Shown here: one piece after another, positions 2,440 through 21,358 of the stretch
Position numbering within the stretch: the first letter of the stretch is position 1
Layout of the letters: the number at the start of each line of letters is the position of its first letter
Source: Myxococcus fulvus
GTDB lineage: Bacteria > Myxococcota > Myxococcia > Myxococcales > Myxococcaceae
Assembly: GCF_900111765.1 (NCBI RefSeq)
Contig: NZ_FOIB01000005.1
Coordinates: forward strand, 558,001-622,000
DNA length: 64,000 nucleotides
Direction of reading: 5' to 3'
Position numbers and translations under genes: made by a program
The notes under the pieces: model-generated
What the model was told of the DNA's origin: nothing
Databases searched by the model: none
Seen by the model: the letters and a program-made list of their open reading frames with translations, nothing else

Positions 2440-4272
2440 GTGAGCGCCCGACCCGGTCTTGCCTTCGCAGTGTCCGTGGAACAGGGAGTCCCCTCCGCCC
2501 TCCCCTCCCGCGCCATCGAAGTCGACGTCGGCGTGGCGCTCCCCACCGCCTTCGGTGGGCTGCGCAAGGTCCTCAAGGCCTGTGAGGACGCGGCCCCCGA
2601 CGTCCACCGCGCCATCGCCGCCGCGCACCCCTCCGAGTGGAACCGGCTGTTCCCGGGCACGACGCAGGGCGTCCCCGCGCTCGAGGACCTGGCGCTGTCC
2701 CCCTCCGAGCGTCGGCTCCACCGTGAATCCGAGCAGACGTTCTGGATTCTCACCGTGGCCGCGCGAACCATCGTGGAGACGCTGCGCGCCAGCGGCCGCC
2801 CCCTCGTGCTGCATGGCGCGGGAGAGTGCGACCTGGTCAGCCTGCGCGCCGTCATGCGCGCCGCCGAGTGGGCCCGGCTGGACGGCCTGGACGGCACCCT
2901 CCTGCTCACCGGCTGGCGGATGCGACGTCCCCATGGCGCCGCCGCCTTCGAGTCTCGCCGGCAGGCCTATCTCGACTCGCTGTGCGACCGCATGCGCGTG
3001 CCCCACGCCTCCGGCCCGGGTCCCGTGTCCTCGCGCGAGCTGGAGCCCACGGTGGACCTGGAGGGCCGCTACCTGCGGCTCGTCGTGGACGAGTCGGAGT
3101 CGCGCGAGACTCGCGTGGCCGCGGCCATCCTCGCCATCCGCAGCTGCTTCTTCACCACGAACTACGAGGGCGCGCTGCTCGCCGCCGAGCACGGCTTGTC
3201 GCTGCTCGAGTCCACGTCCGAGCCGAACTTCCCCGGGCGCGTGGTCCAGGCCTGGGAGGCGCTCGACACGGGCTTCACCACGCCGGCCATCGAAATCGAC
3301 CGCGCGAGCCTGGGAGACGAGGACGAGCTGAAGGCCCTGCTCCACCGGTGCATGGGCGTGGTGCATGTCTTCACGGGCTCGCACGACGAGGCCATGGCCG
3401 CGTTCGGCCGCGGGCTCGAGTGCCGACTGCCTCCCGAGCTGCGCGCGCGACTGCACATGTTCCGCGCGCTGACGCTGACCAAGCGCTTCGGTCAGCTCCC
3501 CAATGCCCGCGCGGAGGTCGAGGCGGGGCTCGCGGAGCTGGCACGCAGCACCGCGCCGGACCGCGCGCTCCAGGAGGGCTGGCTGCGCAACGTGTGCGCG
3601 CTGACCTGGTTCCAGGAGCGCAAGCTCGACAAGGCGCTGGTCGAGGAGAAGCTCGCCATGCGCTGCGTGGGTGATTTGCACGACGCGAGCGCCACGCACC
3701 TCAAGATCAACCTCATCTCCAACGCCAGCTACCTCCAGGAGTCCGCGCGGCAGTTCGCGGACGCCATCGGAACATGGCGGCGCTTCGAGGGCATCAGCGA
3801 GCGCTGGGGCGTCAACTTCTCCAAGCACCACCGCTACCGCCTCGCGGGCCTGGAGTTCGCGTCCGGCCAGCGTGACGAGGCCGTGGAGCACTTCCAGCAG
3901 GCCTATGCCAGCGCGGAGGCCCTGCGCGACTCGTTCCACCGTCAGGTCATCGCGGCGGAGCTGGGCCGCCTGTTCCTCGACGACGGACGGATGGCGCAGG
4001 CGGTGGAGTGGTTCGCCCGCGCCGAGCAGCACGCCCGCGAGATTGGCGAGCCCCTGAAGGCGGCGGAGAGCCTGGCGGGACTGTCCCTCGCGGCGGGACG
4101 CGAGGACTGGTCCGAGGCCCTGCGCTGCGCCCGGGCCAGCACCACCTGGCCCAAGGAGACCCAGGCCCTGGTGGACGCGCTCACGAAGTCGGACGCGAAG
4201 GCGGTGCACGCGCTGCTGCCCCGCCCCCGCACGAAGCTGAACCGGCCGTTCGACTCGGTCAGCCTCTACTGA
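2440..4272 (+). CDS. TPR-repeat protein of unknown function
   Basis: The 610-aa protein starts at GTG 2440 and has no signal peptide or membrane segment. Roughly residues 230-590 are consecutive helix pairs with TPR-like spacing, for example FTGSHDEAMAAFGRGLE, ASGQRDEAVEHFQQAYA and LDDGRMAQAVEWFARAEQ. The first 200 residues are different. They contain RPLVLHGAGECDLVSLRAV and LDGTLLLTGWRM, which recall a Rossmann-like core, but I see no Walker motif or other catalytic signature. TPRs usually mediate protein contacts, so this is probably an adaptor or regulator. Its stop lies 12 bp from the stop of a convergent gene. I do not recognise a named family. Confidence 0.75.
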   Translation: MSARPGLAFAVSVEQGVPSALPSRAIEVDVGVALPTAFGGLRKVLKACEDAAPDVHRAIAAAHPSEWNRLFPGTTQGVPALEDLALSPSERRLHRESEQTFWILTVAARTIVETLRASGRPLVLHGAGECDLVSLRAVMRAAEWARLDGLDGTLLLTGWRMRRPHGAAAFESRRQAYLDSLCDRMRVPHASGPGPVSSRELEPTVDLEGRYLRLVVDESESRETRVAAAILAIRSCFFTTNYEGALLAAEHGLSLLESTSEPNFPGRVVQAWEALDTGFTTPAIEIDRASLGDEDELKALLHRCMGVVHVFTGSHDEAMAAFGRGLECRLPPELRARLHMFRALTLTKRFGQLPNARAEVEAGLAELARSTAPDRALQEGWLRNVCALTWFQERKLDKALVEEKLAMRCVGDLHDASATHLKINLISNASYLQESARQFADAIGTWRRFEGISERWGVNFSKHHRYRLAGLEFASGQRDEAVEHFQQAYASAEALRDSFHRQVIAAELGRLFLDDGRMAQAVEWFARAEQHAREIGEPLKAAESLAGLSLAAGREDWSEALRCARASTTWPKETQALVDALTKSDAKAVHALLPRPRTKLNRPFDSVSLY

Positions 4273-4905: not shown

Positions 4906-6003
4906 TCAGCCGCGTCCCTCGCCCGGCCCCAGGGCCCGGGCAGGAGAGAACGGCGCCTCGCGCCCCGACGCCACCTGCTCCACCACCAGCGCCGCCGCGT
5001 GGGCGCCCGTGAGGATCCCCTGCCCGCCCAACCCCGTGGCCACGAACGTGCGCCGCGTGCCCGGGTAGCGGCCCAGGTACGGACGACCATCCGGCGTCAC
5101 CGCGCGCAGCCCGGCCCAGGCACGCACGAAGCGAGCCTCGCGCAGACGTGGCGCCAGCTTCGCCACCGTGGCGCTCAGGTGCAGCAGGCCCGTGGGCGTC
5201 ACGTTCTCCACGAAGCCCACGTCCTCCTCCGTGGCCCCCACCACCAGCTCCCCCGCGCGCCACGGCGCCAGGTACGTCGGCCCGGACACGACTCGCGACA
5301 AGGAAAGCCCTGGCTGGTGCACCACCATCATCTGCCCTCGCACCGGCTTGAGCGGCAGCGGAGGCAAGCCCGCGAGTGTCGACGACCAGGGCCCCGCGCT
5401 CACGAGGAGCTGGTCCGCGCGCAGCGTCTCTCGGTCCGTGCGCAGCACCACGGCGTCGGAGGTCTCCTCCACCGCGCGCGCCGACTCACCGAGCCGCAGC
5501 CGCACACCCGCGCGAGCCGCCGCGCCCAGCAGCGCGTTGACGTAGCCCTCCGTGTCCACCATGTGGCCACGCGACGACTCGAAGGCACCCAAGAGCGGCG
5601 TCCCCTCCAGCGCGGGCTCCAGCTCCACCAGGCGCGCGGCGTCCACCCACGTGCCCAGCTCCTCCGGATGTTTCTCGGCGCGCGCAGCGAGCGCGTCACG
5701 CCCCTTGGTATCGGCGGCGATGCGGAGGATGCCCTGTCCACGGCGGAGCAGCGCGCCCTCGGGGAGCGAGTCCAGCTCCGCCACCAGCGCATCCCTGCCG
5801 GCGCGCGCGAAGGCCAGCATGTCCGCGTCGTCGTAGAGGCGCACGGAGGGAATCGCCACGCCCGCCGCCGCGCGAGAGCCCCGGCCTCCCGGGTCCACCG
5901 CGTCCAACACCGTCACGCGCGCGCCGAGCGCCGCCAGCCGCCGTGCGGCCGACAGCCCCACCACGCCCGCGCCGAGAATCAGGACCTCCGAGCTGAAACC
6001 CAT
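4906..6003 (-). CDS. FAD-dependent amine oxidase, glycine oxidase/ThiO-like (DAO family)
   Basis: The 365-aa protein is the usual size for DAO-family flavoenzymes, which oxidise the C-N bond of glycine, D-amino acids or related amines using FAD and oxygen. The N-terminus VLILGAGVVGLSAARRLAALG is the dinucleotide-binding GxGxxG motif, followed by an acidic residue ending strand 2 (VTVLDAVDPGG). The C-terminal TPDGRPYLGRYPG and VATGLGGQGILTGAHAA are typical of the FAD-closing region in ThiO-like proteins. ThiO makes the imine for thiamine biosynthesis, but no other thi gene lies nearby, so the substrate is open. Start is ATG 6003. Confidence 0.8.
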   Translation of the reverse strand: MGFSSEVLILGAGVVGLSAARRLAALGARVTVLDAVDPGGRGSRAAAGVAIPSVRLYDDADMLAFARAGRDALVAELDSLPEGALLRRGQGILRIAADTKGRDALAARAEKHPEELGTWVDAARLVELEPALEGTPLLGAFESSRGHMVDTEGYVNALLGAAARAGVRLRLGESARAVEETSDAVVLRTDRETLRADQLLVSAGPWSSTLAGLPPLPLKPVRGQMMVVHQPGLSLSRVVSGPTYLAPWRAGELVVGATEEDVGFVENVTPTGLLHLSATVAKLAPRLREARFVRAWAGLRAVTPDGRPYLGRYPGTRRTFVATGLGGQGILTGAHAAALVVEQVASGREAPFSPARALGPGEGRG

Positions 6004-6118: not shown

Positions 6119-6520
6119 TCAGGACGGCGTCGCCTCGGCCATGCGCTTGGCGAACAGCTCCGCCGCGTTGCGCAGGCTCTGCTCCGACAGGCCGCCCTTC
6201 TCGTTCGCCTTCATCACGTCCGAGAGCAGGTCGGTGATCTGGTTCTTGCCGCCCATCTTGTCGAGCAGGCCGCTCACCAGGCTGTTGCCGCCCATGCCCT
6301 CGAGCATGTTGCTGCCCGGGAACTTGTTGAGCAGGTTCTTCGCGACGCTCGCGCCGGGGAAGAGGTCCATGGCCGCGCCCAGGCCCGCCTGGAGCGGGTT
6401 CTCGCCCTTCATCAGCCCGCTGACGAAGCCCGCCGCGATGCCCAGGGCCGGGTTGATGGCCGTGAGCGCCGGCTTGAGGATGTCCAGCGCCTTGCCGAGA
6501 ACGTTCTTGAAGAGCCCCAT
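6119..6520 (-). CDS. Small Gly/Ala/Leu-rich amphipathic protein, unknown function
   Basis: The 133-aa protein starts at ATG 6520 after GAGAGG. There is no signal peptide. It is built of short amphipathic or hydrophobic helices broken by Gly and Pro. The N-terminus MGLFKNVLGKALDILKPAL reads like a cationic amphipathic helix. This is followed by NPALGIAAGFVSGLMKG, LQAGLGAAMDLFPG and glycine-rich LVSGLLDKMGGKNQ. The composition recalls membrane-active peptides and some secreted structural proteins. It is the last gene of a minus-strand run containing two LanB-like proteins, 149 bp after the previous gene. It could be a substrate of that cassette or simply an unrelated helical protein. Confidence 0.7.
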   Translation of the reverse strand: MGLFKNVLGKALDILKPALTAINPALGIAAGFVSGLMKGENPLQAGLGAAMDLFPGASVAKNLLNKFPGSNMLEGMGGNSLVSGLLDKMGGKNQITDLLSDVMKANEKGGLSEQSLRNAAELFAKRMAEATPS

Positions 6521-6669
6521 GATTGCCTCTCGCGTGCCGGCGTCGCTCTGCGTCCGCCGAAAGTAAGCCTGACAGTGGAGTTATCGGACCAGCGCCCACA
6601 AAGTTCCGTGGCTCCGGAACAAATCCGGGAGAGCCCTGTCAGGCCCAGTGATTCCGCGAGGTTGCGGCC

Positions 6670-7104
6670 TCAGTCCTTCTTGGGGCCGCGAGGTGGGGTC
6701 GGCGCGCCCCGGGACTCGGGGGCCCCGGTGAGGACCGCGTCCGAGGCCAGCGCGGCCTTGTAGCGCTCATCGCCCTTGTCGGAGCTGAAGCCGTCGCGCT
6801 GCTGGGCGCGGCTGATGATGACCTCGCCGCTGATGAGCTTGTCGAGGTGACCCTGGATCTCCTCGACGGTGGGGGCCTTGGGGTCCTTGGCCTTGAGTTC
6901 GTGGTCGAGGGTGATCTCCAGCGGCATCGGCTTCTCGGGGTGCAGCTTGTAGCCGATGATCTTCTCGACGTAGGCCTCCACCGGAATCTGGAGCATCCGC
7001 GCCTGCTCCTTCACGTCTGCGTCCGCGAGCAGCTCCGCGCGAATCTCCTCCACGGGGCGCTTGAGCTTCCGGGGCTCCGGAACGACGGTGTTCTCTCCAG
7101 ACAT
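6670..7104 (-). CDS. 144-aa protein downstream of LanB-like genes, candidate modification substrate
   Basis: ATG 7104 follows GGAGAGG, so I prefer it to the longer frame from 7194, whose extra residues overlap the LanB-like gene and look non-coding. The protein is highly charged and soluble. It has a helical, Leu/Glu/Ala-rich first half (VEEIRAELLADADVKEQARM), a Lys/Pro-rich middle, and a short low-complexity tail (SRGAPTPPRGPKKD). It has no signal peptide and no cysteine. It lies 62 bp after the stop of the LanB-like gene on the same strand. A leader-like helix followed by a flexible tail would fit a carrier for residues added at the C-terminus, but this is inference. I recognise no named family. 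Confidence 0.75.
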   Translation of the reverse strand: MSGENTVVPEPRKLKRPVEEIRAELLADADVKEQARMLQIPVEAYVEKIIGYKLHPEKPMPLEITLDHELKAKDPKAPTVEEIQGHLDKLISGEVIISRAQQRDGFSSDKGDERYKAALASDAVLTGAPESRGAPTPPRGPKKD

Positions 7105-7166
7105 GACCTCTCCAGGGTGGTGCGCCGAACCTCGGGCACATTCTGTTCGCGGACGCGGCTCGGATG

Positions 7167-9467
7167 TCAAAGCGGCGAGGCGCCTTCGCTCCAACGGGTG
7201 AACTGCATGCGCAGCTCACAGGTGTAGCGGCCCCGCTCGTCCCGGAGCCAGAGCTGCTCGGGAGCCGGGTACATCTCCTCCACGGAGAGCCGCTCGGCCT
7301 CGCGGGCCAGGTGAGAGAGCAGGTCCAACGCGAACGGACTCGCGGTGTCGATGAGGTAGGGCTTGCGCTCCTTCGTGCTGCGCATGAACACGAAGCGAGG
7401 CCAGCCGCGCACGTGTCGCTCACGCTGCACGGCGAGGAACAGCTCGAAGCCCGAGGGACGCGCGAGGTGCTCGGAGGACAACTCCCAGCGCTCGCGCTGG
7501 TACACCGCGCCGCCGATGCTCAGCCGAGGCAGGTGTTGTCCCCGCGTGCGCAGCGGTGCATGGAGCACCTGGGGATGCGCCAGCGCGGCGAAGGGCGGGT
7601 ACGAGGAGAAGTCGTCCAGCGGCAGGTACAGGTGCAGCCGCTCGCCCTTCCCGTCCACGAGCACCGGGCCCTGGGAGGTGGGCAGGACCTTCACGTCGCT
7701 CGGCGTCAGCGCGCCGTCCTCGACGTCCAGCACGTCCGACACCGAATAGACGAGCCGCCTGCCCGGGAAGACATAGAAGCCCTTGTTGCGACGGCGGATG
7801 GACAGGCCCACGAGTCCGCGCGCGGACGGGTCCGACTCCAACCAGCGCGAGGCCACCGCCGCATAGCGCTCCTTCGACGGGAAGAACGCGCTCAGCCAGC
7901 TTCGCAGGAGCAGGTGGTGATGCACTCGCGCGAGCATCACCTCGAAGCCCGCGCCGTCACCCTTCGCGGCGAGGCAGACATCCGGCAGCGCGTAGCGGCC
8001 TCCCGGCGTGGACGTTCCGAGGAAGTCCACGGGCAACGTGCGCGCGCGCTCGGGTGACTCGTCCAACAACACCGGGGGCACCGGCGAGAAGCGGCTGCCC
8101 GTCACCTGGTCCGGACGCAGTCGCACGGCGTAGTCGAGCAGGTCCACCGGACGCTCGTCCGTGCCGAGCGCCTCGCGCACCTGCTCGCGGAAGCCCTGCT
8201 GGACGCGCTCGCCATAGGCGGCGGAGAGTTCGAGCGGACCGCTCAGCGCGGATTCGAGCTCCTCGGTGAAGCGCCGGCCGAAGCGCAGACGGAATGGTGA
8301 GCTGGCCTCCTCGTAGACGATGAGCCGGTCCGCGTACACCTGCCCGTCGCCGCGCCGCGCGGGCTTGCCGGTGGCCTCCGTGAAGCGCGCCTCCAGTTCG
8401 AGGAGCAGCACCTTGCGGCGGGTCAGGTCCGCGGTCTGGAACTCGGCCTTCAGTCGCGACAGCGTGTCCAGGCGCTCCAACCAACGCGAGCGCGCCTCCA
8501 GCTCGGGCAGCGCGGCGACGGCGTCCCGCACGCTCTCGAAGGTCGCGAAGTCGTTGGGTCGGAACGGCAGTCCCCAGAGCAGCAGCGCGCCCTTCACCAG
8601 GGGCAACGCGGCGCGCTCGGCGTCCTCCACCGCGATGCCCAGCACCTTCGCGGCGGCGGCGGGCGTGGGATGCTCGCGGAGCACGGACAGCAGGCGCTCG
8701 GCGCTCTCGGACAGCGGCACCTCCAGCTTCAACACCTCGCAGGAGGCACGGCCGCGGGACACCGTGAAGAGCGGGTTGAGGCGCAGCGGGAGATGGGGCC
8801 GCAGCGTGCGCTCACGGCCCACCGCGCGCGCCAGCTCCGTCACCGCCCAGAAGGAGAAGAACGTTCGTCGGCTCGTGTCGCCGCTGGCGACGGTGCGCAC
8901 GTCGAAGCCGTCTTTGTCCGTGCGCTCACCGTAGGAGATGGGACCGAAGAAGCTCGTGGTCTCGTTCTTGGCGCAGAAGCGTTGGAGGTACGTGTAGACC
9001 TGTCGCTCCACCCGACGTCCGTCGGACGTGTCCTTGCGCTCACCGCCGCGCAGGTAGCGAGCCCAGACGTTGTCGAACATCGCGGGGCTGGAGAGGAACA
9101 CCGCCTCCTGGATGGAGGGCTCCGCCGCGCGTTCGCGCAGCTTCGAGCGCAGCTCCGAGCGCTCCTGGGCATGGCGCTCCTGGAGGGACTTGTACCCGGC
9201 GCGCAGGCGCGACAGCACGGCGAAGCGCTCCGAGCCCGCGGGCGCCCAACGCGGCGCCGTGTCGTTCTCGAGCAACGCCCGGAGGACGGGGGCTTTGACG
9301 GGGCTGCCTTCCGCGCTCAGCGCATCCAGGAGTGCCTGCTCGTCCGCGAGCCATCGGTTCGCTTCGTCCACCAGCGCGGTGGAGAACCCAAGCGACTCCA
9401 GCCAGTCGAAGGGGAAGCCGGCATGACGGAGCACGAACACCTCGCCCAAGGTCCAGCGTCCGCTCAT
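7167..9467 (-). CDS. LanB-like protein without elimination domain (PEARL-like), copy 1
   Basis: This 766-aa protein resembles the N-terminal glutamylation half of lantibiotic dehydratases (Lant_dehydr_N). It begins FVLRHAGFPFDWLESLGF and has the signature QRFCAKNETTSFFGPISYG at about 162-180. It ends with a PEQLWLRDERGRYTCELR segment close to the C-terminus. Full LanB enzymes are about 1,000 aa because a C-terminal domain eliminates glutamate; that domain is absent. Proteins of this shape either work with a separate elimination protein or are PEARLs, which add amino acids from aminoacyl-tRNA to a peptide C-terminus. No elimination protein is encoded nearby. ATG 9467 overlaps the previous stop as ATGA, so translation is probably coupled. 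The upstream frame to 9650 is shadow sequence. Confidence 0.85.
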   Translation of the reverse strand: MSGRWTLGEVFVLRHAGFPFDWLESLGFSTALVDEANRWLADEQALLDALSAEGSPVKAPVLRALLENDTAPRWAPAGSERFAVLSRLRAGYKSLQERHAQERSELRSKLRERAAEPSIQEAVFLSSPAMFDNVWARYLRGGERKDTSDGRRVERQVYTYLQRFCAKNETTSFFGPISYGERTDKDGFDVRTVASGDTSRRTFFSFWAVTELARAVGRERTLRPHLPLRLNPLFTVSRGRASCEVLKLEVPLSESAERLLSVLREHPTPAAAAKVLGIAVEDAERAALPLVKGALLLWGLPFRPNDFATFESVRDAVAALPELEARSRWLERLDTLSRLKAEFQTADLTRRKVLLLELEARFTEATGKPARRGDGQVYADRLIVYEEASSPFRLRFGRRFTEELESALSGPLELSAAYGERVQQGFREQVREALGTDERPVDLLDYAVRLRPDQVTGSRFSPVPPVLLDESPERARTLPVDFLGTSTPGGRYALPDVCLAAKGDGAGFEVMLARVHHHLLLRSWLSAFFPSKERYAAVASRWLESDPSARGLVGLSIRRRNKGFYVFPGRRLVYSVSDVLDVEDGALTPSDVKVLPTSQGPVLVDGKGERLHLYLPLDDFSSYPPFAALAHPQVLHAPLRTRGQHLPRLSIGGAVYQRERWELSSEHLARPSGFELFLAVQRERHVRGWPRFVFMRSTKERKPYLIDTASPFALDLLSHLAREAERLSVEEMYPAPEQLWLRDERGRYTCELRMQFTRWSEGASPL

Positions 9468-11098
9468 CCGTGCGTCCTCTCCAGGATGGACTTCGTCACC
9501 AACATCTCCACCAGCTTCGCGCGCTGCGCTTCCGGCACCTGGGGCAACGCGGTCGCCACGTCGGTGGGCTCGGTCAATCGGGCCAGCACCGGCGCGAGGC
9601 GCGCATCCATCACGACCACCCCACCCGTGCGCAGATTCGCCGCGTACCACGAGGGCTTCGGCGCCCCTTCGAGCGTGGCGGGCAGGTGCACCACCGCGCA
9701 GTCCACGTCCAGACGGAGGTGCGTGACGCCATCGGCCGCTGGAGGTGCGAGCAGGAACGCCGCGGCGACACGGCCTGGACTGAGCGGAGCCCGGGTCATC
9801 AGCCGGCTCGCCAGCGACGTGAGGACCGCGGGCAGACGCGCCCCGGGAATCGTGCCCGGCCTCTCGACGGGGCGACTGCGAGACAGGTCGCGGTCCGCCG
9901 GAGCGTCACCGGGCTGCCCCCACCAGCGCGCCAGATTGCGGACCCGTGCGATGCGCTCCACCGACGCGTGGAACGGGCGCACACCTGCGAGCTGGTCGAA
10001 GAAGCGTGAGCCCTCCAGCGCGGCCAGCGTGGCGTCCAGCGCCGCCTCGTCCACCCCCGGCGCTCCGACCCACCACTCCGCGACGACGCGCACACCCGCG
10101 GCCTTGAGTCGTTCGTAGCCCTGGACCAGGAGTTCCACGGGGGAGAAGCCATGGTCGGGGTCGACCACCCGGCCGTTCTCGATGCCGCAGAACCCCACCA
10201 CCGCCGTGTGGCAGCCGCTCTGCACGAGCACGTCCGCGGCCAGGAGCGAGCCGAGCGAGACATGCCCGGCCCATCGCGCGCCGCCCGTGTACGCACGCAC
10301 GTCGTCCAACGCGCACCGACCGAGCCAACCCTCTTCGGGTCCGGATTCCGGCCTCGCGCTGTCGGGCTCCATCACCGCCCAGTCCTGGTCATCGCCCCAC
10401 GGATACGGAGCCAGGACCTCCAGCCCGAGCCCATCGGAGATCCACACGAGGTCCTCGACGCCCGTGTCGCCGGACAACGGGCGCACACGCCAGCGCAACG
10501 TGGGGACCTGCTCCGGGAACGTGGCACGCCGGAACGCGGGCATCCGCGCCAGCACCTTGCGATGCGTCGAGGCAAAAGGTCCCGCGACCTCCAGGGACAC
10601 ATGGGCCGGACACGCCTGTGCCAGGGACACGGCGGCCGGGAGCTGGAGGTCTCGCTCCAGCCACAGGCGAACACACTCGGCATCCTCGAACCGCGCGAGC
10701 ACGGCCGCCACGTCATCCGAGTACGGCGAAGGCATCCCCGACACGCGCTGCACGTCCGCGCTCCGCTCCGTCGTCCCGGACTCCAGCTCCACGTCATCGA
10801 GCCGCAGGTGCACACCGTGCGGCGGTCCGGAGATGGCTGTCAACACCGCGCCCAGCGCGCGCAGCTCCGACAAGGGAGTTCGTTCACGCAGGCGCTGCGC
10901 GGCTCGCAGCAGGAGCAACTCGCGCATCGACTGAGACGACGGTGGCGATGACTCGCGCGAACGACACTCCGCTTCCACGGACTCGGCGGAGAAGACCCGA
11001 CGGGTGAAGTCCCTCGCCAGGTCCAGCAGGTGCCACCCCTCGGGGACCTCGGGCACGAGCGTCACGTCCCGATGGGGAGGCAGCACCAGCCACTTCAT
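9464..11098 (-). CDS. Degenerate B12/radical-SAM-like protein with PqqD/RRE-like tail, between two LanB-like genes
   Basis: The 544-aa product starts at ATG 11098, inside the ATGA overlap with the gene before it, and ends in the ATGA overlap with the gene after it. Residues about 125-195 (AAVLARFEDAECVRLWLERD, then LEVAGPFASTHRKVLARMP) resemble the B12-binding-like half of cobalamin radical-SAM proteins. Residues 255-365 resemble the second half of the SAM barrel, with FCGIENGRVV where GIESGS is usual and LKAAGVRVVAEWWVGAPG where AGI...VGFPGE is usual. The CxxxCxxC cluster motif is missing, so it is unlikely to be an ordinary radical enzyme. Residues 465-540 resemble a PqqD-type winged helix, which would bind a leader peptide. 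The fold assignment is by eye. Confidence 0.6.
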   Translation of the reverse strand: MKWLVLPPHRDVTLVPEVPEGWHLLDLARDFTRRVFSAESVEAECRSRESSPPSSQSMRELLLLRAAQRLRERTPLSELRALGAVLTAISGPPHGVHLRLDDVELESGTTERSADVQRVSGMPSPYSDDVAAVLARFEDAECVRLWLERDLQLPAAVSLAQACPAHVSLEVAGPFASTHRKVLARMPAFRRATFPEQVPTLRWRVRPLSGDTGVEDLVWISDGLGLEVLAPYPWGDDQDWAVMEPDSARPESGPEEGWLGRCALDDVRAYTGGARWAGHVSLGSLLAADVLVQSGCHTAVVGFCGIENGRVVDPDHGFSPVELLVQGYERLKAAGVRVVAEWWVGAPGVDEAALDATLAALEGSRFFDQLAGVRPFHASVERIARVRNLARWWGQPGDAPADRDLSRSRPVERPGTIPGARLPAVLTSLASRLMTRAPLSPGRVAAAFLLAPPAADGVTHLRLDVDCAVVHLPATLEGAPKPSWYAANLRTGGVVVMDARLAPVLARLTEPTDVATALPQVPEAQRAKLVEMLVTKSILERTHG

Positions 11099-13419
11099 CG
11101 CTCCTCCTCCCGCGTGACGGAGGGAGCGCCCGACATCAGCGTGCAGCGCAGCTCCACCGTGTGACGGCCCGAAGGCCCTCGCAGCCAGAGCTGCTCCGGC
11201 CCGGGCAACATCTCCGAGAGGAGGACCTCCTCCTTCTGCTCCAGCAGGTTGAGGAAGACGCGCAGCAGCGGCGGACTGCGCACGTCCACCAGCACCGGTT
11301 TGCGCTCGCCCTTGAACTTCGCGAAGACACACGGAGGAAGTCCCCGCGCATCCCACAGGCCCACCGCGACACGCAGCCTCGCGCGGTCGTCCTTGCACGC
11401 CAGCAGCGCCTCACACGCCGCCGCATCCAACCTCCACTGCTCGCGCTGCACCACCACGCCGCCCATCGTCACCCGGGGCGTGTGCTCTCCCAGGGACACC
11501 TTCAACGGCCGGATGCGAGGCAGCGAGAACGCCGTGTGCACCGCGCTCTCCAGCTCGCCGTTGTAGAGGCAGACCTCGGAGCCCAGCCGCTTCGACACGA
11601 GGCGCGCGCTCTTGCCATCGCTCTCGACGAACAGGTCATCCAACGGGATTCGCCACGCGGACGCATGGGAGCTCACGCCGCCCAGCTCCACCACCGGCCC
11701 CGGGAACTCGGAGGGCAACAGCCCCGTGCGCCGCGACGGCAACACCGTCACCAACGGCACGGAGCGCGACAGCGCCCCGAGTGCGCGCACCATCTCGCTC
11801 TCCACCTTCGCGCGCGACGGATGGAACTGGAGCGCCCAGCCCCACACGAGCGCCGTGTCGTGGATGTCTCCCATCACCAGCGTGTAGTCGCCCCGCCCCC
11901 AGGCCTCCACGTCCGTGGCGCCCACCAGCAGGTCCACGGAGGTGACGAGCGGCAGCGTCCTCGCCGCGTCCCACGACGGACGCTCCACCGCGCCCAGCTC
12001 GACGGACCGCGCGGCCGCGTCGGGGATGGACTTCGCGAGCAGCTCCGCCACCGTCGTGTCCAGCGGCACCGGCAGGTCCGCGGCTGCGGCCGCCACCTTC
12101 CAGAAGGGCACCGTGCGCGAGCCCACCTTCCGAGCCACCGCCTCACGGGCCGCGTCACGGGTGCGCCACGCCGCCTCCGCCATCCACGCGAGCGCCGGCT
12201 CCAAGCGCGCGCCCAGCTCCCGCGCGCGCTCACCGCCGACCTCCAGCCGCAGGTCTCCGCCGCACTCCTCCCGCAGCGGCAGACGGTCCTGGTAGAAGTT
12301 GTGGGACTCGGACGCGGGGCCTCGCTCCGTCGGCGGCGCCACGCCCCACAGCTCCTTCGCCTTGCGCGCGAAGGCCTCCTGCAGCGCCATCTTCCCGCCC
12401 GCGTCGGCCGCGCCGTAGCGCCCCATCAACTCCAGCAGCGTGCTCAGCCCCTCGACGTGACGACGCGCGCCCGCGCCCGGCAGCGCGGCGACCCGCTGGG
12501 CCAGGTCGTCCACGGGGTGGTGCACCGCGGACGGGACCTCGAGCTGGTGCGTGAGCAGCGCCTTGTCACAGCCGAGCCGCAGCGCCTCGCGCGCCATGCC
12601 GGGCGCCACGCCGAGCGAGGACGCGAGCGCCGCCAGCGTGCGCGTCCCATCTGCCAGCTCCACGATTCGCGGCAGCAGCTCCTCCACGCTCTCCGGCGTC
12701 GGCCCCGCCTTGCGCGCGGGCATCTCCGCGAAGGCCTTGCGGCGCGGCACCAGCCACGAGGCGATGTCCGGGTCGAAGGCAATCGCGCGCACCAGCCCCT
12801 GCACCAGCCACGACGCCGCGAAGGTGTTGCGCCCCACCAGCGTCTCGGGCCCGGACCAGCGCAGCGTCACGCCCGTGGGCGCCTGTGCATCCACCCGGCC
12901 GTAGTTGATGGGACCGAAGAAGCCCATCGTCTCGTTCTTCGCGCACAGCCGCTGGAGGTAGCTCGCCACCTGCCTGCGCAGCCGAGAGCCCTCGCGCTTC
13001 GCGAGCAGGTCCCTGGCCACGGGGGGACTGGAGCTGGCCACCGCCTCCAGGAAGCGCGGCTCGCGGCACAGCGCCTCCATCTGCGTCTCCACCGCCGGCA
13101 GCTCCCGCTCCAGCGCCGACGCGAGGGCGGCCTCCGCCTCCTGCGCCGCGCGGGCGCGCGTGTTCCAGTCGGCGAAGCGCTCGGGTGCCTCCAGGCCCTC
13201 GGTGTCGACGGGCCGGCCCGCCTTGAGAGCGGAGAGCAGCTCCCGGGGAGGCCGGTGCACACGCGGGCCCTGGGCACGCAGCGCGTCCAATGCACGCCGC
13301 TCCGCCTCGAGGGCGCGCGCCTGGCGCGCCGACTCCGGACACCCCAGCCGCTCCAGCCAGTCGAACGGGAAGCCTGTCGCGCGAACGACGAGGTGGGGGA
13401 AGAGGGTCCAGCCCTTCAT
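11095..13419 (-). CDS. LanB-like protein without elimination domain (PEARL-like), copy 2
   Basis: The 774-aa protein is a diverged relative of the one at 7167-9467. It shares RATGFPFDWLERLGC near the N-terminus, QRLCAKNETMGFFGPINYG at about 156-174, and the closing PGPEQLWLRGPSGRHTVELR. It likewise contains only the glutamylation-type half of LanB. The two copies differ over most of their length, so this is an old duplication or two separate recruitments rather than a recent repeat. It is the first gene of the three-gene coupled block. It starts at ATG 13419, 72 bp after the stop of the STAS/kinase gene. Products of this type use glutamyl- or other aminoacyl-tRNA in the cytoplasm; the exact amino acid cannot be read from sequence. 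Confidence 0.85.
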   Translation of the reverse strand: MKGWTLFPHLVVRATGFPFDWLERLGCPESARQARALEAERRALDALRAQGPRVHRPPRELLSALKAGRPVDTEGLEAPERFADWNTRARAAQEAEAALASALERELPAVETQMEALCREPRFLEAVASSSPPVARDLLAKREGSRLRRQVASYLQRLCAKNETMGFFGPINYGRVDAQAPTGVTLRWSGPETLVGRNTFAASWLVQGLVRAIAFDPDIASWLVPRRKAFAEMPARKAGPTPESVEELLPRIVELADGTRTLAALASSLGVAPGMAREALRLGCDKALLTHQLEVPSAVHHPVDDLAQRVAALPGAGARRHVEGLSTLLELMGRYGAADAGGKMALQEAFARKAKELWGVAPPTERGPASESHNFYQDRLPLREECGGDLRLEVGGERARELGARLEPALAWMAEAAWRTRDAAREAVARKVGSRTVPFWKVAAAAADLPVPLDTTVAELLAKSIPDAAARSVELGAVERPSWDAARTLPLVTSVDLLVGATDVEAWGRGDYTLVMGDIHDTALVWGWALQFHPSRAKVESEMVRALGALSRSVPLVTVLPSRRTGLLPSEFPGPVVELGGVSSHASAWRIPLDDLFVESDGKSARLVSKRLGSEVCLYNGELESAVHTAFSLPRIRPLKVSLGEHTPRVTMGGVVVQREQWRLDAAACEALLACKDDRARLRVAVGLWDARGLPPCVFAKFKGERKPVLVDVRSPPLLRVFLNLLEQKEEVLLSEMLPGPEQLWLRGPSGRHTVELRCTLMSGAPSVTREEER

Positions 13420-13491: not shown

Positions 13492-16690
<3,199 letters not shown>

Positions 16691-16713
<23 letters not shown>

Positions 16714-17560
16714 GCGAACAGAAAAGCAGTGACTTGGGCTGGGTCGCGCGGCGGCGCGCGTCTCCCAGGTCCACCACGCACACGACGCGAGACTCGCGGC
16801 CGACGCACACCCGCGCGGCCACCGTGTCGCAATGCTCGAGGATGCGGCGCAACCCGAGGCCCGCCCCGCCCCCGGACGCATCCACCTTCACCTTCTGGCC
16901 CCACCCGTCCAACGCCCGGGCGAACGGCCCCGGCCGCAGCCCGCCGAAGCGGTCCGCCACCTCCAGCCACATCCGGCCGTCCTCCACCGCGAACACCAGC
17001 TCGCAGGCGTCCTCCGGCGCCACCTCGCGCACCTCGGTGCGGCGGTGCGCGTAGCGGGGCTCGCCCTTCGCGTCCACCGGCGCATCCAACAGCGCGTTGG
17101 CGGCGATTTCGTGCACCACGTCCGCCACCAGCCCCGCGGCCACCCGGCTGCCCTCCGCCGCGCCCACCGCCGACGCCGCCGCCTTGGCCGCCTCGTGGAT
17201 GTCCGCCACGCGGCGCAGGGGATGGCGCGTCACCTCCGCGCGCTCGGGCAGCAGCGTCCCGGATGGCTTCAGGACCGCGCCCACCAGGAGCGCTTCCCAC
17301 ATGGACGGGCCGCCGTCGCGCTCGCGCGTGGCGAGCAGCAGCGCCGGAGGCTCGCGCCGCAGCCACTGCGCGTGCTCGGGCTTGAGGACCCCGTCGAACA
17401 GCAAGAGGCCTCGCGAGCCCGTCGACGCAGACGTCACCGCGGAGGCCCCCACCCCACCCTGCGTCAGCAGAGGCACCACCTGCTCGAGCGCGGCCGCGGG
17501 CAGGGAAGCATCTGCAATCAGCAGGAGGCCACTGGCCTCCAGGTGGGGTGCGGTACTCAA
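16691..17560 (-). CDS. RsbW/SpoIIAB-like HATPase protein, partner-switching component
   Basis: The 289-aa protein starts at ATG 17560. Its C-terminal half looks like a HATPase_c domain of the anti-sigma/serine-kinase type. VADVVHEIAANALLDAP carries the N-box (E..xN), MWLEVADRFGGLRP carries a D-x-G-like motif, and GGGAGLGLRRILEHCD carries the G2 box. The N-terminal 130 residues look like a receiver- or STAS-like alpha/beta domain (LLLIADASLPAAALEQVV) without an obvious phospho-acceptor site. It starts 9 bp after the TonB receptor stop and overlaps the STAS/kinase gene by 23 bp. A natural reading is that it binds or phosphorylates the STAS-like region of its neighbour, opposed by the SpoIIE-type phosphatase upstream. 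This is inference from context. Confidence 0.75.
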
Positions 17561-17569
17561 ACGAGGTGC

Positions 17570-20218
17570 CTAGTAGCGTACCTTGACTTCACTGAAGAAG
17601 GATTGGGGCGCGACGGGGAAGCCGTGAGACTCCTCGTACGCCGCGTTGAAGAGGTTGGAGCCCAGGAACGACACGGAGATGCCGTCGTAGACGTTGAAGC
17701 CCACCCGCGCGCTGGCGGTGAGGTAGCTGGGCAGCTCCACGCGGGAGCTGGGCAGGCCCGTCGTCTCATCCACCTGGAAGCCCGGGTCGAAGCGCGAGCC
17801 CACGAAGAGGGCGTAGAGCTCCACGAAGGCCACCTTGCCGATGTTGGTGCGGCCGCGCGCGTAGATGCGGTGGGTGGGCGCGTAGTCCAGCGGCGTGCGG
17901 GCCCCGCCGTCGAAGGGCACGTTCTTGGCGTCGAGGAACTGATAGGCCACGTCGAAGGACGAGTTGATGGACGGAATCTGCGCGGCCGCCTCCAGCTCCG
18001 CGCCGGCGATGCGCGCGTCGCCCATGTTCCGGAACTGCGACACCGAGCCGAACACGAGCTGCTGATTGATGAAGTTCTTGGCCACGTTGTAGAAGCCCGT
18101 CCCCGTCAGGCGCACCCGCCGGTCGAAGGGCCAGAAGTCCACCGAGGCCTCGAAGGTGTCGAGCGTCTCCGCCCGCAGGCCCGCGTTGCCCACCAGCGTG
18201 GAGGCGTACATCTGCTGGTTGATGGCCAGCTCCGCCAGCGTGGGCGCGCGGAAGGCGCGGCCGTAGTTGGTGCGCAGCGTGAGCAGCTCCGGCACCGCGT
18301 GGAAGACGATGCTGGCGCGCGGTGAAATCTGGTCCGTGCGCTCGCGCCAGACGCGCTCGGGAATCTGGTAGCGGTCATAGCGGGCGCCCGCGCTCACCAC
18401 CACGCGCTCCAGCGGGCGGTACTCCGCGTCCACGAAGCCGCCGATGATGGTCTGCTTCGTGTCGTCCATCGTGAGCTCGGGCAGCACGTTGGGCACGTTG
18501 ACCTGGTCGAACTTCACGTCGCCGCCGAACGTCACGGACACCGGGCCCGCCGAGTACAGGGCGCGCGCCTCGCCGCCCAGCCGCCGACGCTTGCCCAACG
18601 CGCGCGTGGGGTCGCCACCGAAGGCGTTCTCCAGCACCACGTCGCGGCGCTTGAAGAAGCCGTACACCTGACCGAACAGGCGCAGGCTGTCCGTCACCTG
18701 CTGGTCCACCTGGGCGGAGGCGTTGAGGTTCTGGACGGACTCCTCGTCGTTCGGCGTGTAGTGGCAGCGGCCGCAGTTGCCCACCGTCGAAATCTGGGTG
18801 TGCGAGCCACCCGGGCGGCCGATGGTCGCGTCGGTGAAGTCCGCGTCCAGCGCCAGCGGGCCCACGCGCACCTTGCCGTTGACCTGGTGCACCATCGAGT
18901 CCTGGTTGCGGTCCACCACCCCCGTCGCGGGGTCATTGAAGAGCTGGGCTCCGTCCGAGCCGAAGCCGTAGTAGCCGAGCAGCGCCTCCACCGGGCCACC
19001 GCGGCCTGCCACGTTGCCGTGCAGCCGCCACGTCTGGTCCTGGCCGGCGAGCACGCGCGCCTCGGCGCCCACGTTGCGCCCCGGGGCGATGAGGTCCCCG
19101 GGCTGCCGCTCGATGATGTTGATGACGCCGCTGAAGGCGTTGGAGCCGTACAGCGAGGAGCCCGGGCCCCGGATGACCTCCACCTGCTTCAAGTTGACCA
19201 GGGGCGTCGTCTCGTCCGCGTAGAACTGGCCCGTCCACGGGTCCGTCAGCGGGCGGCCGTCCTTCAGGAGCAGCAGGCGGTTGGACAGGTAGTTGGAGCC
19301 CAGGCCACGCGCGCTCACCGCCGCCTTGCGCATGGAGCCCCGGCGGCACTCCATGCCGGGGAAGTACTGGATGGCCTCGCACAGCGTGAACTGGCCGGTG
19401 CCCTCGAGCTCCTCGGCCGGAATCCACGACACCGTCAGCGGCACGTCCGCGATGCGCTGGTTGCGCTTGCCGGCCGTGGTCACCACCGCCTCGCTGAGCA
19501 CGCGGTTGACGGACTCCTCCAGCGGGTCCGCGCCGCCCAGTGGATCCAATCCCGCCAGGCCCGACGGGGGCGGCATGGCCCGGTCCATGGTGGGCTCGGC
19601 GAAGGGCGCGCTGATGGGGACGTTGTCGGTGGCGACGGGCGCGGGAGGCGGGGTCTTCGTCGCGGGCAGCACCGCGCCGTGGCCCGGCGTGGAGGCGGGC
19701 GACGAGGTGAGCGGATCCGAAATGCTGGGACCGGGCTGCGCGCCCGGGCTCGCCACGGGAGCCGTGGGCAGCGGCGCGGGGGGATGCGACTCCACCGTGG
19801 GCGCCGGGGCGACGGGCACGGGGGGCTCGGCCGTCACGGACTCCGTCGCCGGGGTGGGCTCGTCCTCCAGGCCACCGCCCAGCACGGGGATCTCCGCGTC
19901 GGCGGGAGGAGCTTCCGTGCCGCGAGGAGGCTTGCGCGTCTTGGGCGGCTTCTTCGCCGTCGCGCGCGGAGGCTTGGTGGCGGGCGTCTTCGTCGTCGTG
20001 GCGGCGGGCTTCGTCCCGTTCGCCACGCGCTTCTTGCGCTTCACCTTGGGCTGCGACTCGGAGGCCGCGTTGGTCTCTTGCGCCTGGGCCACCGTCGGGT
20101 GGGCCACGGCCAGCGCGCAGAGCACGGCCGACACCGTGAAGAAGGCTCGAAGGCCCCGGCGCTTCACGTGAGCACGCACCGCGCCTGGCAGCGGATCACC
20201 ACACACAATCGAGTGCAT
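17570..20218 (-). CDS. TonB-dependent outer-membrane receptor with long basic N-terminal extension
   Basis: This is a TonB-dependent transporter of 882 aa. A signal peptide (about 1-45, ending ..HPTVAQAQ) is followed by an unusual stretch of about 180 residues rich in Lys, Pro, Ala and Thr (KKRVANGTKPAATTTKTP). The plug domain occupies about 230-360: SEAVVTTAGKRNQRIADVP, LLLLKDGRPLTDPW and VEVIRGPGSSLYGSNAFSG. The rest is a beta-barrel ending in an aromatic residue (SEVKVRY). A CGRCH sequence at 482-486 has the form of a c-type haem attachment site. The start ATG 20218 follows GAGAG. A Fur-like site lies upstream, which would suggest iron or haem uptake, yet the neighbours are signalling genes. 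Confidence 0.88.
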   Translation of the reverse strand: MHSIVCGDPLPGAVRAHVKRRGLRAFFTVSAVLCALAVAHPTVAQAQETNAASESQPKVKRKKRVANGTKPAATTTKTPATKPPRATAKKPPKTRKPPRGTEAPPADAEIPVLGGGLEDEPTPATESVTAEPPVPVAPAPTVESHPPAPLPTAPVASPGAQPGPSISDPLTSSPASTPGHGAVLPATKTPPPAPVATDNVPISAPFAEPTMDRAMPPPSGLAGLDPLGGADPLEESVNRVLSEAVVTTAGKRNQRIADVPLTVSWIPAEELEGTGQFTLCEAIQYFPGMECRRGSMRKAAVSARGLGSNYLSNRLLLLKDGRPLTDPWTGQFYADETTPLVNLKQVEVIRGPGSSLYGSNAFSGVINIIERQPGDLIAPGRNVGAEARVLAGQDQTWRLHGNVAGRGGPVEALLGYYGFGSDGAQLFNDPATGVVDRNQDSMVHQVNGKVRVGPLALDADFTDATIGRPGGSHTQISTVGNCGRCHYTPNDEESVQNLNASAQVDQQVTDSLRLFGQVYGFFKRRDVVLENAFGGDPTRALGKRRRLGGEARALYSAGPVSVTFGGDVKFDQVNVPNVLPELTMDDTKQTIIGGFVDAEYRPLERVVVSAGARYDRYQIPERVWRERTDQISPRASIVFHAVPELLTLRTNYGRAFRAPTLAELAINQQMYASTLVGNAGLRAETLDTFEASVDFWPFDRRVRLTGTGFYNVAKNFINQQLVFGSVSQFRNMGDARIAGAELEAAAQIPSINSSFDVAYQFLDAKNVPFDGGARTPLDYAPTHRIYARGRTNIGKVAFVELYALFVGSRFDPGFQVDETTGLPSSRVELPSYLTASARVGFNVYDGISVSFLGSNLFNAAYEESHGFPVAPQSFFSEVKVRY

Positions 20219-20440: not shown

Positions 20441-21358
20441 TCAGTCGTCGGGCTGCTCGGCGGCGACGGCGAGGTCGCTGGTGAAGGACGGCAGCGAGGG
20501 CCCCAGCGCCTCCGCGCGGACGAAGACCTCGGCGTCCACGCGCGTGTCCGCCACGTCGGCGAAGACGGGCTGGCGGCGCGGAGGGCCCTGGGTCACGAGA
20601 CGTCGGAAGTCCTCGAAGTCCTTGCCCTGGATGCGCGTGAAGGGCTCGAACGGCGCCACCGCGCCCACGGTGGGCAGGGCCTGCTCCAGGGCGTCCTTGT
20701 GGTTGCGCAGGTCCACCAGGACGGCGCCGGGGAGCCGGGCGCTGCGGAAGAGCACGCGCAGCTCCTTGTCCTTGGGGACGTGGGACACGGGGACGAGCGC
20801 GGCCTCGGCGCCCTTGGCCTCGAGCATCTTCAGCGCGGACTCCACGTTGGGCACGGGCGACAGCTTGAAATGGCGCTGTGCGTCCAAGTCGCCGCCGAGC
20901 ACCGCGTGGGTGACGAACTTGGGGTCGGCGGGGCCGGCGCCCTTCACCAGGGCCAGGCGCTTGCCGGCGAGGTCCTTCACCGCGCCCTTGTGGGTGGAGA
21001 CGATGGCCCAGCGCTGCTGGGACTCCCCCGGGCGCGAGGCCCAGGCCAGGGGCGTGGCGCGCGAGCCCAGCTGCACGGCGGCCCAGCCCTCCACCACGGC
21101 GAAGTCGACCAGGCCGTCGGCCATGGCGCGCGCGAAGTCCTCGTAGCGGCCGAAGCTCTTGGCGGCGACGGGGCGGTCCAGGACCTCGGTGAGCTTGGCG
21201 GCCAGGGCCTCCGCGTACTGGAAGCGCTCCTGACCATCACTCAAGGTGGTGGCGAGGAAGACGCCCACGGTGGCCTTCTTGGGGGCGGCGGCGACGGCCG
21301 GGGATGCGACGAGGAAGGCCAGCGCGAGGATGGCCCACGGGAAACGAGGCGTCTTCAT
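20441..21358 (-). CDS. PhnD-like phosphate/phosphonate-type periplasmic binding protein
   Basis: The 305-aa protein starts at ATG 21358 with a clear signal peptide (MKTPRFPWAILALAFLVASP). The mature part resembles the PhnD family of ABC-transporter substrate-binding proteins: KATVGVFLATTLSDGQERF, a GRYEDFARAMADGLVDFAVV lobe-1 segment, and DLAGKRLALVKGAG. No ABC permease or ATPase gene is nearby, so it may act as a ligand sensor for the surrounding signalling proteins rather than as part of an importer. Its start is joined to the preceding TPR gene by an ATGA overlap (21355-21358), which implies a fixed production ratio. The ligand is unknown. Confidence 0.8.
   Translation of the reverse strand: MKTPRFPWAILALAFLVASPAVAAAPKKATVGVFLATTLSDGQERFQYAEALAAKLTEVLDRPVAAKSFGRYEDFARAMADGLVDFAVVEGWAAVQLGSRATPLAWASRPGESQQRWAIVSTHKGAVKDLAGKRLALVKGAGPADPKFVTHAVLGGDLDAQRHFKLSPVPNVESALKMLEAKGAEAALVPVSHVPKDKELRVLFRSARLPGAVLVDLRNHKDALEQALPTVGAVAPFEPFTRIQGKDFEDFRRLVTQGPPRRQPVFADVADTRVDAEVFVRAEALGPSLPSFTSDLAVAAEQPDD

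Follow-up and report, generated by a model that had tools for sequence, protein, structure and literature searches.

A putative pyrroloiminoquinone-type pearlin pathway divided between two unlinked loci in Myxococcus fulvus and other myxobacteria

The 64,000 nucleotides of Myxococcus fulvus analyzed here (NCBI RefSeq assembly GCF_900111765.1, contig NZ_FOIB01000005.1, positions 558,001 to 622,000 of the forward strand; hereafter the window) harbor a cassette of three overlapping genes, in which two LanB-like proteins without elimination domain flank a third protein. We consider it likely that the window represents the modifying half of a pyrroloiminoquinone-type pearlin pathway, in which peptide aminoacyl-tRNA ligases (PEARLs) would extend a carrier peptide, and that a second locus of the same genome represents the carrier half. 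Gene content, motifs, the predicted fold, the matching carrier peptide and the shared distribution are observed here, and the chemistry of all steps, the task of each PEARL and the product are inferred.

The cassette and its carrier peptide

LanBA (11095..13419, minus strand; 774 amino acids (aa), P0003) and LanBB (7167..9467, minus strand; 766 aa, P0001) are PEARL-type candidates that enclose an Amm10-like middle protein (9464..11098, minus strand; 544 aa, P0004). Both cassette junctions are 4-base ATGA overlaps (GCGATGAAG and CGGATGAGC). Lant_dehydr_N (PF04738) is the sole Pfam match in LanBA and LanBB (E 1e-17 and 3e-16), the elimination domain PF14028 gave no match in either at E <= 1, and the middle protein has no Pfam match at all. 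Since a 1077-aa full-length LanB from the same genome (locus L108) matches both PF04738 and PF14028, the elimination domain is detectable when present. An earlier note, written from the letters alone, had described two LanB-type proteins without elimination domain around a third protein, and the coordinates and Pfam results bear this out; the motifs KNET..FFGPI and LWLR...GR.T.ELR, which it had listed as common to both, are real in the alignment. Its claim of ATGA coupling holds for the two cassette junctions but not for a 144-aa open reading frame (ORF; 7104-6670) inside the quoted span, which does not overlap LanBB.

A tblastn search of plasmids with LanBA led to an uncharacterized cluster on a plasmid of Kitasatospora sp. 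NBC_00039 (NZ_CP108290.1), in which LanBA-like, middle-like and LanBB-like genes follow each other in the same order with overlapping ends. LanBA is 38.6% identical to a 769-aa LanB of this cluster (395 bits; next LanB 170 bits) and LanBB is 39.0% identical to one of 771 aa (413 bits; next LanB 189 bits), while the middle-protein profile matches its counterpart with E 3e-46. Two further window proteins, a TPR protein and an FAD-dependent oxidase, have homologues there as well (36.6% identity, E 4e-93, and 45.8% identity, respectively), so that all five window proteins are represented, along with two TldD-type proteins and a 40-aa AmmA/BhaA-type peptide that ends LDEIENKIAPLALA and is absent from the PLSDB gene table. 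In contrast to the myxobacterial loci, the Kitasatospora genes form one contiguous cluster, which encodes seven LanB-like proteins, i.e. five besides the LanBA and LanBB counterparts, and an FMN-reductase-family protein; the PLSDB gene table, which is incomplete, lists neither a Rieske nor a cytochrome gene within it. Plasmid searches with the TPR protein found Kitasatospora only. The published BhaA peptide found nothing among the plasmids at E <= 1 (tblastn) and missed the Kitasatospora peptide too, thus tblastn of plasmids with such short peptides is insensitive.

By pattern search, no frame below 150 residues with a carrier-like C-terminus was found in the window or in 19 other myxobacterial loci, 17 with the cassette and two with a solo middle gene. 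Searching the window's genome with the Kitasatospora peptide, however, gave one good match, on contig 13 (E 9.7e-5; next E 2.06). This carrier is a 60-aa ORF on a different contig from the window; it ends LLEEIESKIAPLALA (its end is also given as EEIESKIAPLALA), and its stop codon and the start of a Rieske oxygenase gene (PF00355, PF19112) overlap. In the published account of the bha and amm peptides, BhaA-Ala ends LEEIEDKVAPLALA and AmmA* ends LDEVESKIAPLALA, and their tryptophan-extended forms BhaA-Ala-Trp and AmmA*-Trp end LEEIEDKVAPLALAW and LDEVESKIAPLALAW (PMC9850906). Among its last 26 residues the myxobacterial carrier shares 15 with BhaA-Ala and with AmmA*, the last 13 being nearly the same, and it has the acidic ...E-[IV]-E-x-K-[IV]-A-P-L-A-L-A ending of the amm/bha pearlins. 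Carrier peptides were read in 30 of the 34 genomes introduced below: the last 12 residues are identical in all 30, and the N-terminal halves vary. A 12-mer is described as sufficient for BhaBCTrp (PMC11962472). Such an invariant C-terminus would be expected if the PEARLs recognize it.

Distribution among myxobacteria

We surveyed 145 genomes of the order, with gene calls outside annotated records made by a simple purpose-made gene caller. Thirty-four of them encode a LanBB orthologue (52-96% identity) together with a second LanB; the cut-off of at least 52% identity retains 34 of the 61 genomes with any match. The carrier peptide, the TPR protein and the FAD oxidase (E <= 1e-50) were found in the same 34 genomes. 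The carrier gives one strong match per genome, and four weak matches of E 0.03-0.05 (G035, G036 and second matches in G106 and G117) were left out of its survey. Cassette, peptide, TPR protein and FAD oxidase are all missing from G096 and G111, two genomes of the same genus. Fisher's exact test gives 6e-34 for the co-distribution, a value that is overstated, as related genomes are not independent. Based on matching sequences and this shared distribution, the carrier and the PEARLs are predicted to act together although they are encoded at unlinked loci. A scan of named genomes yielded 14 loci under the titles Myxococcus (including M. xanthus AM003), Pyxidicoccus, Citreicoccus and Archangium, and one of the 14 is titled Comamonas sp. 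KCTC 72670.

The earlier note had also proposed a comparison of genome neighborhoods, and the order LanBA-middle-LanBB proved to be conserved in all 18 cassettes laid out (the window and 17 others), as is the longer order kinase-LanBA-middle-LanBB. In five Archangium loci the FAD oxidase gene follows directly after LanBB, and in L074, from the genus of Archangium, the LanBB stop codon overlaps the start codon of this gene (TGATG).

The carrier locus is similarly stable. In 23 of 24 loci the carrier gene is followed by genes for the Rieske oxygenase, often a diheme protein, a tetraheme protein, a lipoprotein-like protein and TldD-like and TldE-like proteins; in 22 of the 23 loci of this common order a divergently oriented barrel-like gene lies before the carrier, and the diheme gene was not detected in five Archangium-genus carrier loci. 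The lipoprotein and barrel labels were read from sequence. In the window's genome the tetraheme protein is lipoprotein-like and has four CxxCH heme motifs; Pfam assigns the diheme protein to cytochrome c and gives the tetraheme protein sub-threshold heme families only. The TldD-like protein contains HEVCGH, its TldE-like partner does not, and both match PF19289, as would suit a TldD/TldE-like release protease. When the earlier note stated that no protease or transporter is adjacent, this was correct for the immediate cassette but misleading, given the TldD/TldE-like pair at the peptide locus and a TonB-dependent receptor gene, which is found two genes upstream of the kinase gene preceding LanBA.

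One could imagine that the PEARLs act on this carrier but add another amino acid, without a tryptophan/quinone route, and that the flavoenzymes perform other chemistry. In favor of this scenario, the window's genome has just two elimination-less LanBs and one full-length LanB at E <= 1, compared with the four PEARLs described for amm (PMC12715798) and the seven LanB-like proteins in Kitasatospora. However, the carrier C-terminus is close to BhaA-Ala and AmmA*, and the TPR protein and the glycine-oxidase-like enzyme travel with the carrier. We thus regard this scenario as improbable and prefer the pyrroloiminoquinone-type route.

Residue analysis of the LanB proteins

Published work on TglB reports that Asp542 and Arg803 matter for the ATP-dependent phosphorylation of the peptide C-terminus, that the split LanB TbtB has Tyr and Leu at these positions, that Glu801 is common to both, and that a Glu at the second Mg position is non-essential in TglB (PMC11117183). 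For BhaBCTrp, the tRNA 3'-CCA helix R197-Q201-Y205-R208, Arg34 and further residues are among those described as tested (PMC11962472). We aligned 21 myxobacterial elimination-less LanBs, extended by the seven LanB-like proteins of Kitasatospora, and assigned the PEARL columns by spacing and motif, TglB itself being outside the alignment. The columns for Asp, His, Glu and Arg are filled in all 28 proteins. The ATP-site pair is D496/R758 in LanBA and D496/R753 in LanBB. In the two full-length LanBs aligned, by contrast, one of which is encoded in the window's genome, the Asp is replaced by Val or Met and the Arg by Val.

Among 18 orthologues of LanBA, R13 (in at least 90%), R146/Q150/Y154/R157, D496, D518, H520, E756 and R758 are conserved; the corresponding residues of LanBB are R14, R152/Q156/Y160/R163, D496, H516, E751 and R753. 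The R-Q-Y-R helix and the N-terminal Arg are present in all 14 LanBA/LanBB rows, the other 14 LanBs keep the last Arg of the helix and mostly the Tyr, and the Kitasatospora LanBB-like protein has the complete helix. At the second metal position LanBA has a characteristic Asp and LanBB a characteristic Arg, and both recur in the Kitasatospora counterparts. A phmmer search of solved structures with LanBB gave nothing above chance level; the profile reached TbtB (6ec7). Domain content, ATP site, tRNA helix and a cognate carrier together support LanBA and LanBB as PEARL-type proteins, for which ATP- and aminoacyl-tRNA-dependent extension of the peptide C-terminus is predicted. The PEARL-type reading of the earlier note is hence strengthened, since both proteins have the ATP-site residues that separate PEARLs from split LanBs.

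Alternatively, LanBA and LanBB might be glutamylating enzymes of the split-LanB kind, serving a lanthipeptide- or thiopeptide-like pathway with an elimination partner encoded elsewhere. They belong to the LanB N-terminal family, and a full-length LanB is encoded in the same genome. Yet they possess the ATP-site Asp and Arg, positions at which dehydratases differ, and the full-length LanB has an elimination domain of its own. Class I lanthipeptide or thiopeptide LanBs would have an elimination domain, fused or in a neighboring protein; the search for Lant_dehydr_C that the earlier note had suggested found no such domain in LanBA, LanBB, ten neighboring window genes or seven scanned genes of the peptide locus; the sole full-length LanB of the genome, with its own domain, lies elsewhere. 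In addition, in the peptides read, the last 24 carrier residues comprise one Ser and neither Thr nor Cys. Given the ATP-site residues and the absence of PF14028, we reject a classical or split lanthipeptide dehydratase, to which we give hardly any probability, and retain the assignment as PEARLs.

The middle protein

The model of the middle protein has a mean pLDDT of 72. In Foldseek, TsrM (E 7.5e-5) and AprD4 (E 3.6e-4) lead its matches, and with VIA-align 2 they reach Z 10.0 at a root-mean-square deviation (rmsd) of 4.5 over 290 residues and Z 9.4 at rmsd 4.6 over 279 residues, respectively. Its C-terminal part (residues 456-544) aligns with RRE domains, namely those of PbtF (Z 6.7, rmsd 3.2, 78 residues) and TbiB1 (Z 6.7, rmsd 3.4, 78 residues; VIA-align 2 in both cases). 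These Z values are middling, and it is the pattern of matches that is telling. The CX3CX2C motif of radical-SAM enzymes is absent from all 20 homologues compared; for the row set of the middle protein, 14 of 15 sequences were used, and L085 was left out as its ORF had been called too long. Amm10 has been described as having an RRE-like C-terminus, similarity to AprD4 and TsrM and no cysteine motif, and as conserved in ammosamide-like clusters (PMC12715798). The modeled middle protein, with its radical-SAM/B12-type fold without CX3CX2C and its C-terminal RRE-like domain, fits this published description of Amm10.

The middle protein occurs in the 34 cassette genomes and on its own in G084, where the gene is located near ABC transporter genes and a putative outer-membrane barrel gene. 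Distant profile matches were found in G148 and G165, and the G165 locus has no LanB among its called genes.

Proposed pathway and comparison with known systems

Two further window genes would complete the modifying half. A TPR protein of AmmC/BhaC type (2470..4272, plus strand; 600 aa, TPR_12 above cut-off) is a candidate hydroxylase of a C-terminal Trp; a TPR superhelix is predicted, and its first 200 residues are of low confidence. An FAD-dependent DAO-family oxidase (4906..6003, minus strand; 365 aa, PF01266 with E 1e-59) is glycine-oxidase-like. By homology it is assigned to the Amm14/BhaG type of glycine oxidase. We also considered a plain thiamine ThiO and tentatively discarded it, because the ThiO model scores 184 bits, under its cut-off of 250.8, and the gene tracks the distribution of the pathway.

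The pathway could be envisioned as follows. One PEARL would extend the C-terminus of the 60-aa carrier from aminoacyl-tRNA, with Trp expected by analogy with AmmB2 and BhaB7. The TPR protein would, like BhaC1, turn the indole into a quinone by hydroxylation. To this quinone the second PEARL would attach an amino acid, glycine or another one, which the glycine-oxidase-like FAD enzyme would then cleave to leave an amine. The Amm10-like protein may hold and present the peptide via its RRE or assist a further step, the Rieske oxygenase may tailor the product, and the TldD/TldE-like pair would finally cut off the finished residue so that the peptide could be reused. Two PEARLs may be enough here, given that PLALA is already encoded at the end of the carrier, whereas BhaA first receives an Ala.

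Of the known systems, the ammosamide C pathway (amm) of Streptomyces sp. CNR-698 as described in PMC12715798 and PMC11117183 is similar in its PEARLs, a near-identical C-terminus of the AmmA-type carrier, an Amm10-like protein, an Amm14-like glycine oxidase, TPR proteins and a TldD/E-like release protease. It differs in having four PEARLs where we find two, and in myxobacteria the carrier and protease genes lie at a second, unlinked locus. Moreover, no halogenase or methyltransferase was recognized at the two loci, while a Rieske oxygenase gene overlaps the carrier gene, and heme proteins and a TonB receptor are associated. The bha pathway of Alkalihalobacillus halodurans C-125 (PMC9850906, PMC11962472) is similar in its carrier BhaA-Ala, which ends LEEIEDKVAPLALA, in a TPR-containing protein, BhaC1, and in BhaG, the counterpart of Amm14; BhaC1 is reported to be an FMN enzyme with TPRs that introduces three hydroxyl groups into the C-terminal Trp (PMC9850906). 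In contrast to the myxobacterial carrier, in which it is encoded, the last Ala of BhaA is added by a PEARL, and bha PEARLs are numbered up to BhaB7 in the published text (PMC12945691). PEARLs of the sna type, from nonribosomal peptide synthetase/polyketide synthase clusters, are likewise elimination-less LanBs forming amide bonds, but are described as acting on an assembly-line product without carrier peptide (PMC11212132).

If the modified residue were never released, the carrier with its quinone would itself be the product, a peptide-bound cofactor. The heme-protein genes beside the carrier gene and the single strong peptide match in each genome would suit this idea. However, a TldD/TldE-like pair is present in 23 of 24 carrier loci, and in the amm pathway a TldD/E-like protease is reported to release the product (PMC12715798). 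A peptide-bound product is therefore very improbable in our view, and we favor release of a small molecule by the TldD/TldE-like pair.

Several observations weigh against the assignment to a pyrroloiminoquinone-type pathway. The link to AmmB, BhaB, BhaC1, AmmC1 and Amm10 runs through the uncharacterized Kitasatospora cluster and published descriptions, and membership in this group is a prediction. The 34 genomes are related, thus their shared distribution reflects few independent events, and the cassette and carrier loci are unlinked. LanBB has an Arg at the second Mg position, where the other aligned LanBs have Glu or Asp, and the Kitasatospora LanBA-like protein keeps just the Gln and the last Arg of R-Q-Y-R. 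For the middle protein, the cobalamin enzyme CysS ties with the leading structures (Z 9.3, rmsd 5.1, 278 residues; VIA-align 2); consequently, the fold is B12-radical-SAM-like, but not specific to TsrM or AprD4. Solo Amm10-like genes without adjacent LanB gene occur at L080 9317-11032 (G044, Archangium lansinium, L094) and L081 9071-10729 (G084). The TPR protein might be AmmC2-like and non-catalytic. No second TPR protein, quinone reductase (Amm17/BhaH) or dipeptidase was recognized at the two loci, for which no genome-wide search was made. Finally, of the 24 carrier loci, G091 is the one without the tetraheme gene nearby, and it has no Rieske match at E <= 1e-40, a match that 33 of the 145 genomes have.

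The G091 carrier locus is arranged differently as a whole: the carrier gene is followed by the TPR gene, genes for a pyridoxal-phosphate (PLP) enzyme and an ornithine-cyclodeaminase-family enzyme, and a TonB receptor gene. This receptor is 55-56% identical to the one in the window, and another homologue is located beside the tetraheme gene on contig 230. The enzyme pair between the carrier/TPR genes and the receptor (L168 8696-10638; Pfam PALP and OCD_Mu_crystall) is presumably SbnA/SbnB-like and possibly makes diaminopropionate for a different version of the product.

Neighboring genes and redox context

Upstream of LanBA, at a distance of 72 bases, lies the gene of a STAS/Ser-Thr kinase protein (13492..16698, minus strand; 1068 aa, Pkinase with E 1e-41, STAS_2 under cut-off), which may be regulatory or sensory. 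It adjoins LanBA in all 18 cassettes, in G091 as a mere fragment at the contig end. Its gene overlaps that of a conserved 237-aa protein (16691..17404, minus strand) without Pfam or NCBIfam match, which occurs in 17 of 18 cassettes; the exception, G091, is truncated by the end of the contig. The TonB-dependent receptor follows (17570..20134, minus strand; 854 aa, PF00593 with E 3e-38 and PF07715 with E 1e-17).

In G077 and G084, neither of which has the LanBA-LanBB cassette or the carrier peptide, diheme, tetraheme and lipoprotein-like genes come directly after those for the TonB receptor, the 237-aa protein and the kinase. Consequently, the two halves of the pathway adjoin two halves of what is one locus there. 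Tetraheme relatives (about 37-45%) are also common in genomes without the pathway, which suggests that the heme module is older or wider than the pathway; heme proteins as pathway-specific components were thus dismissed, as homologues occur in many genomes without it. The TonB receptor was not found at E <= 1e-50 in the cassette-less G096 and G111, which is compatible with a link but comes with no positive control genome. The predicted surface heme proteins at the peptide locus and the TonB receptor at the PEARL locus hint at a role in redox or metal uptake. Because the TonB receptor-kinase and heme genes adjoin in G077 and G084 and are split between PEARL and carrier loci in the PEARL-bearing genomes, one might speculate that these predatory bacteria use a small Trp-derived quinone at the surface of their own cells: it would be secreted or shuttled, taken up via the TonB receptor and undergo redox reactions with the tetraheme and diheme proteins, as a redox cofactor, electron shuttle or metallophore derived from a ribosomal peptide. 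We regard this as a tentative and rather doubtful idea.

Between LanBB and the FAD oxidase, two small ORFs of 133 and 144 aa (6119..7104, minus strand) were called in Myxococcus loci only (10 of 11 laid out) and not in the five Archangium loci; they probably lie outside the core pathway. As precursors they were rejected, since they were not called in the Archangium loci and are not carrier-like. In other Myxococcus genomes a third ORF, which reads as an acetyltransferase, lies between LanBB and the FAD oxidase, again in Myxococcus only.

Significance and other LanB loci

The known pearlin pathways are few, and the PEARLs reported cover eight amino acids (PMC11962472, PMC12715798). The full route to ammosamide C did not appear until December 2025 (PMC12715798). 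The putative pathway described here is conserved in 34 of 145 genomes, and a record named Myxococcus xanthus is included among its loci, thus a minimal two-PEARL version would be available in a genetically tractable host. As an Amm10-like protein is fixed between two PEARLs, the role of Amm10 becomes testable, and the TonB receptor and heme proteins offer a physiological context. Our results further suggest that carrier and PEARLs can be unlinked, and cluster-based genome mining can consequently miss such pathways. No myxobacterial pearlin pathway was reported in the open papers searched, subscription papers being mostly outside this scope, so that an earlier mention is possible; in the open papers examined for mention of both subjects, myxobacteria appeared just in reference titles or unrelated contexts.

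Elimination-less LanBs of other kinds were observed as well. At L082 8867-11131 (G118) and L119 9302-11407 (G105), such a LanB is encoded inside an apparent hybrid polyketide cluster. In the alignment, the L082 protein retains the residues of PEARLs, and both are probably PEARLs acting on an assembly-line product as in sna; the L082 locus resembles the sna kind, whereas the window cassette does not. In other myxobacterial genera (L109, L110, L111, L116, L117 and L118), elimination-less LanB genes recur, according to gene calls only, in a mini-cluster with an apparent PLP enzyme and two further similar proteins of ~380-420 and 440-470 aa.

In the window's genome, the full-length LanB gene on contig 3 (G000, L108 6871-10104) is accompanied by a 68-aa ORF (10330-10536) and an apparent ABC exporter, which reads as a separate, class I lanthipeptide-like cluster. 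In G091, an extra 797-aa LanB (L120 3599-5992, contig 248) lies by TPR and phosphonate-binding-type genes like those at 20441-23874 of the window.

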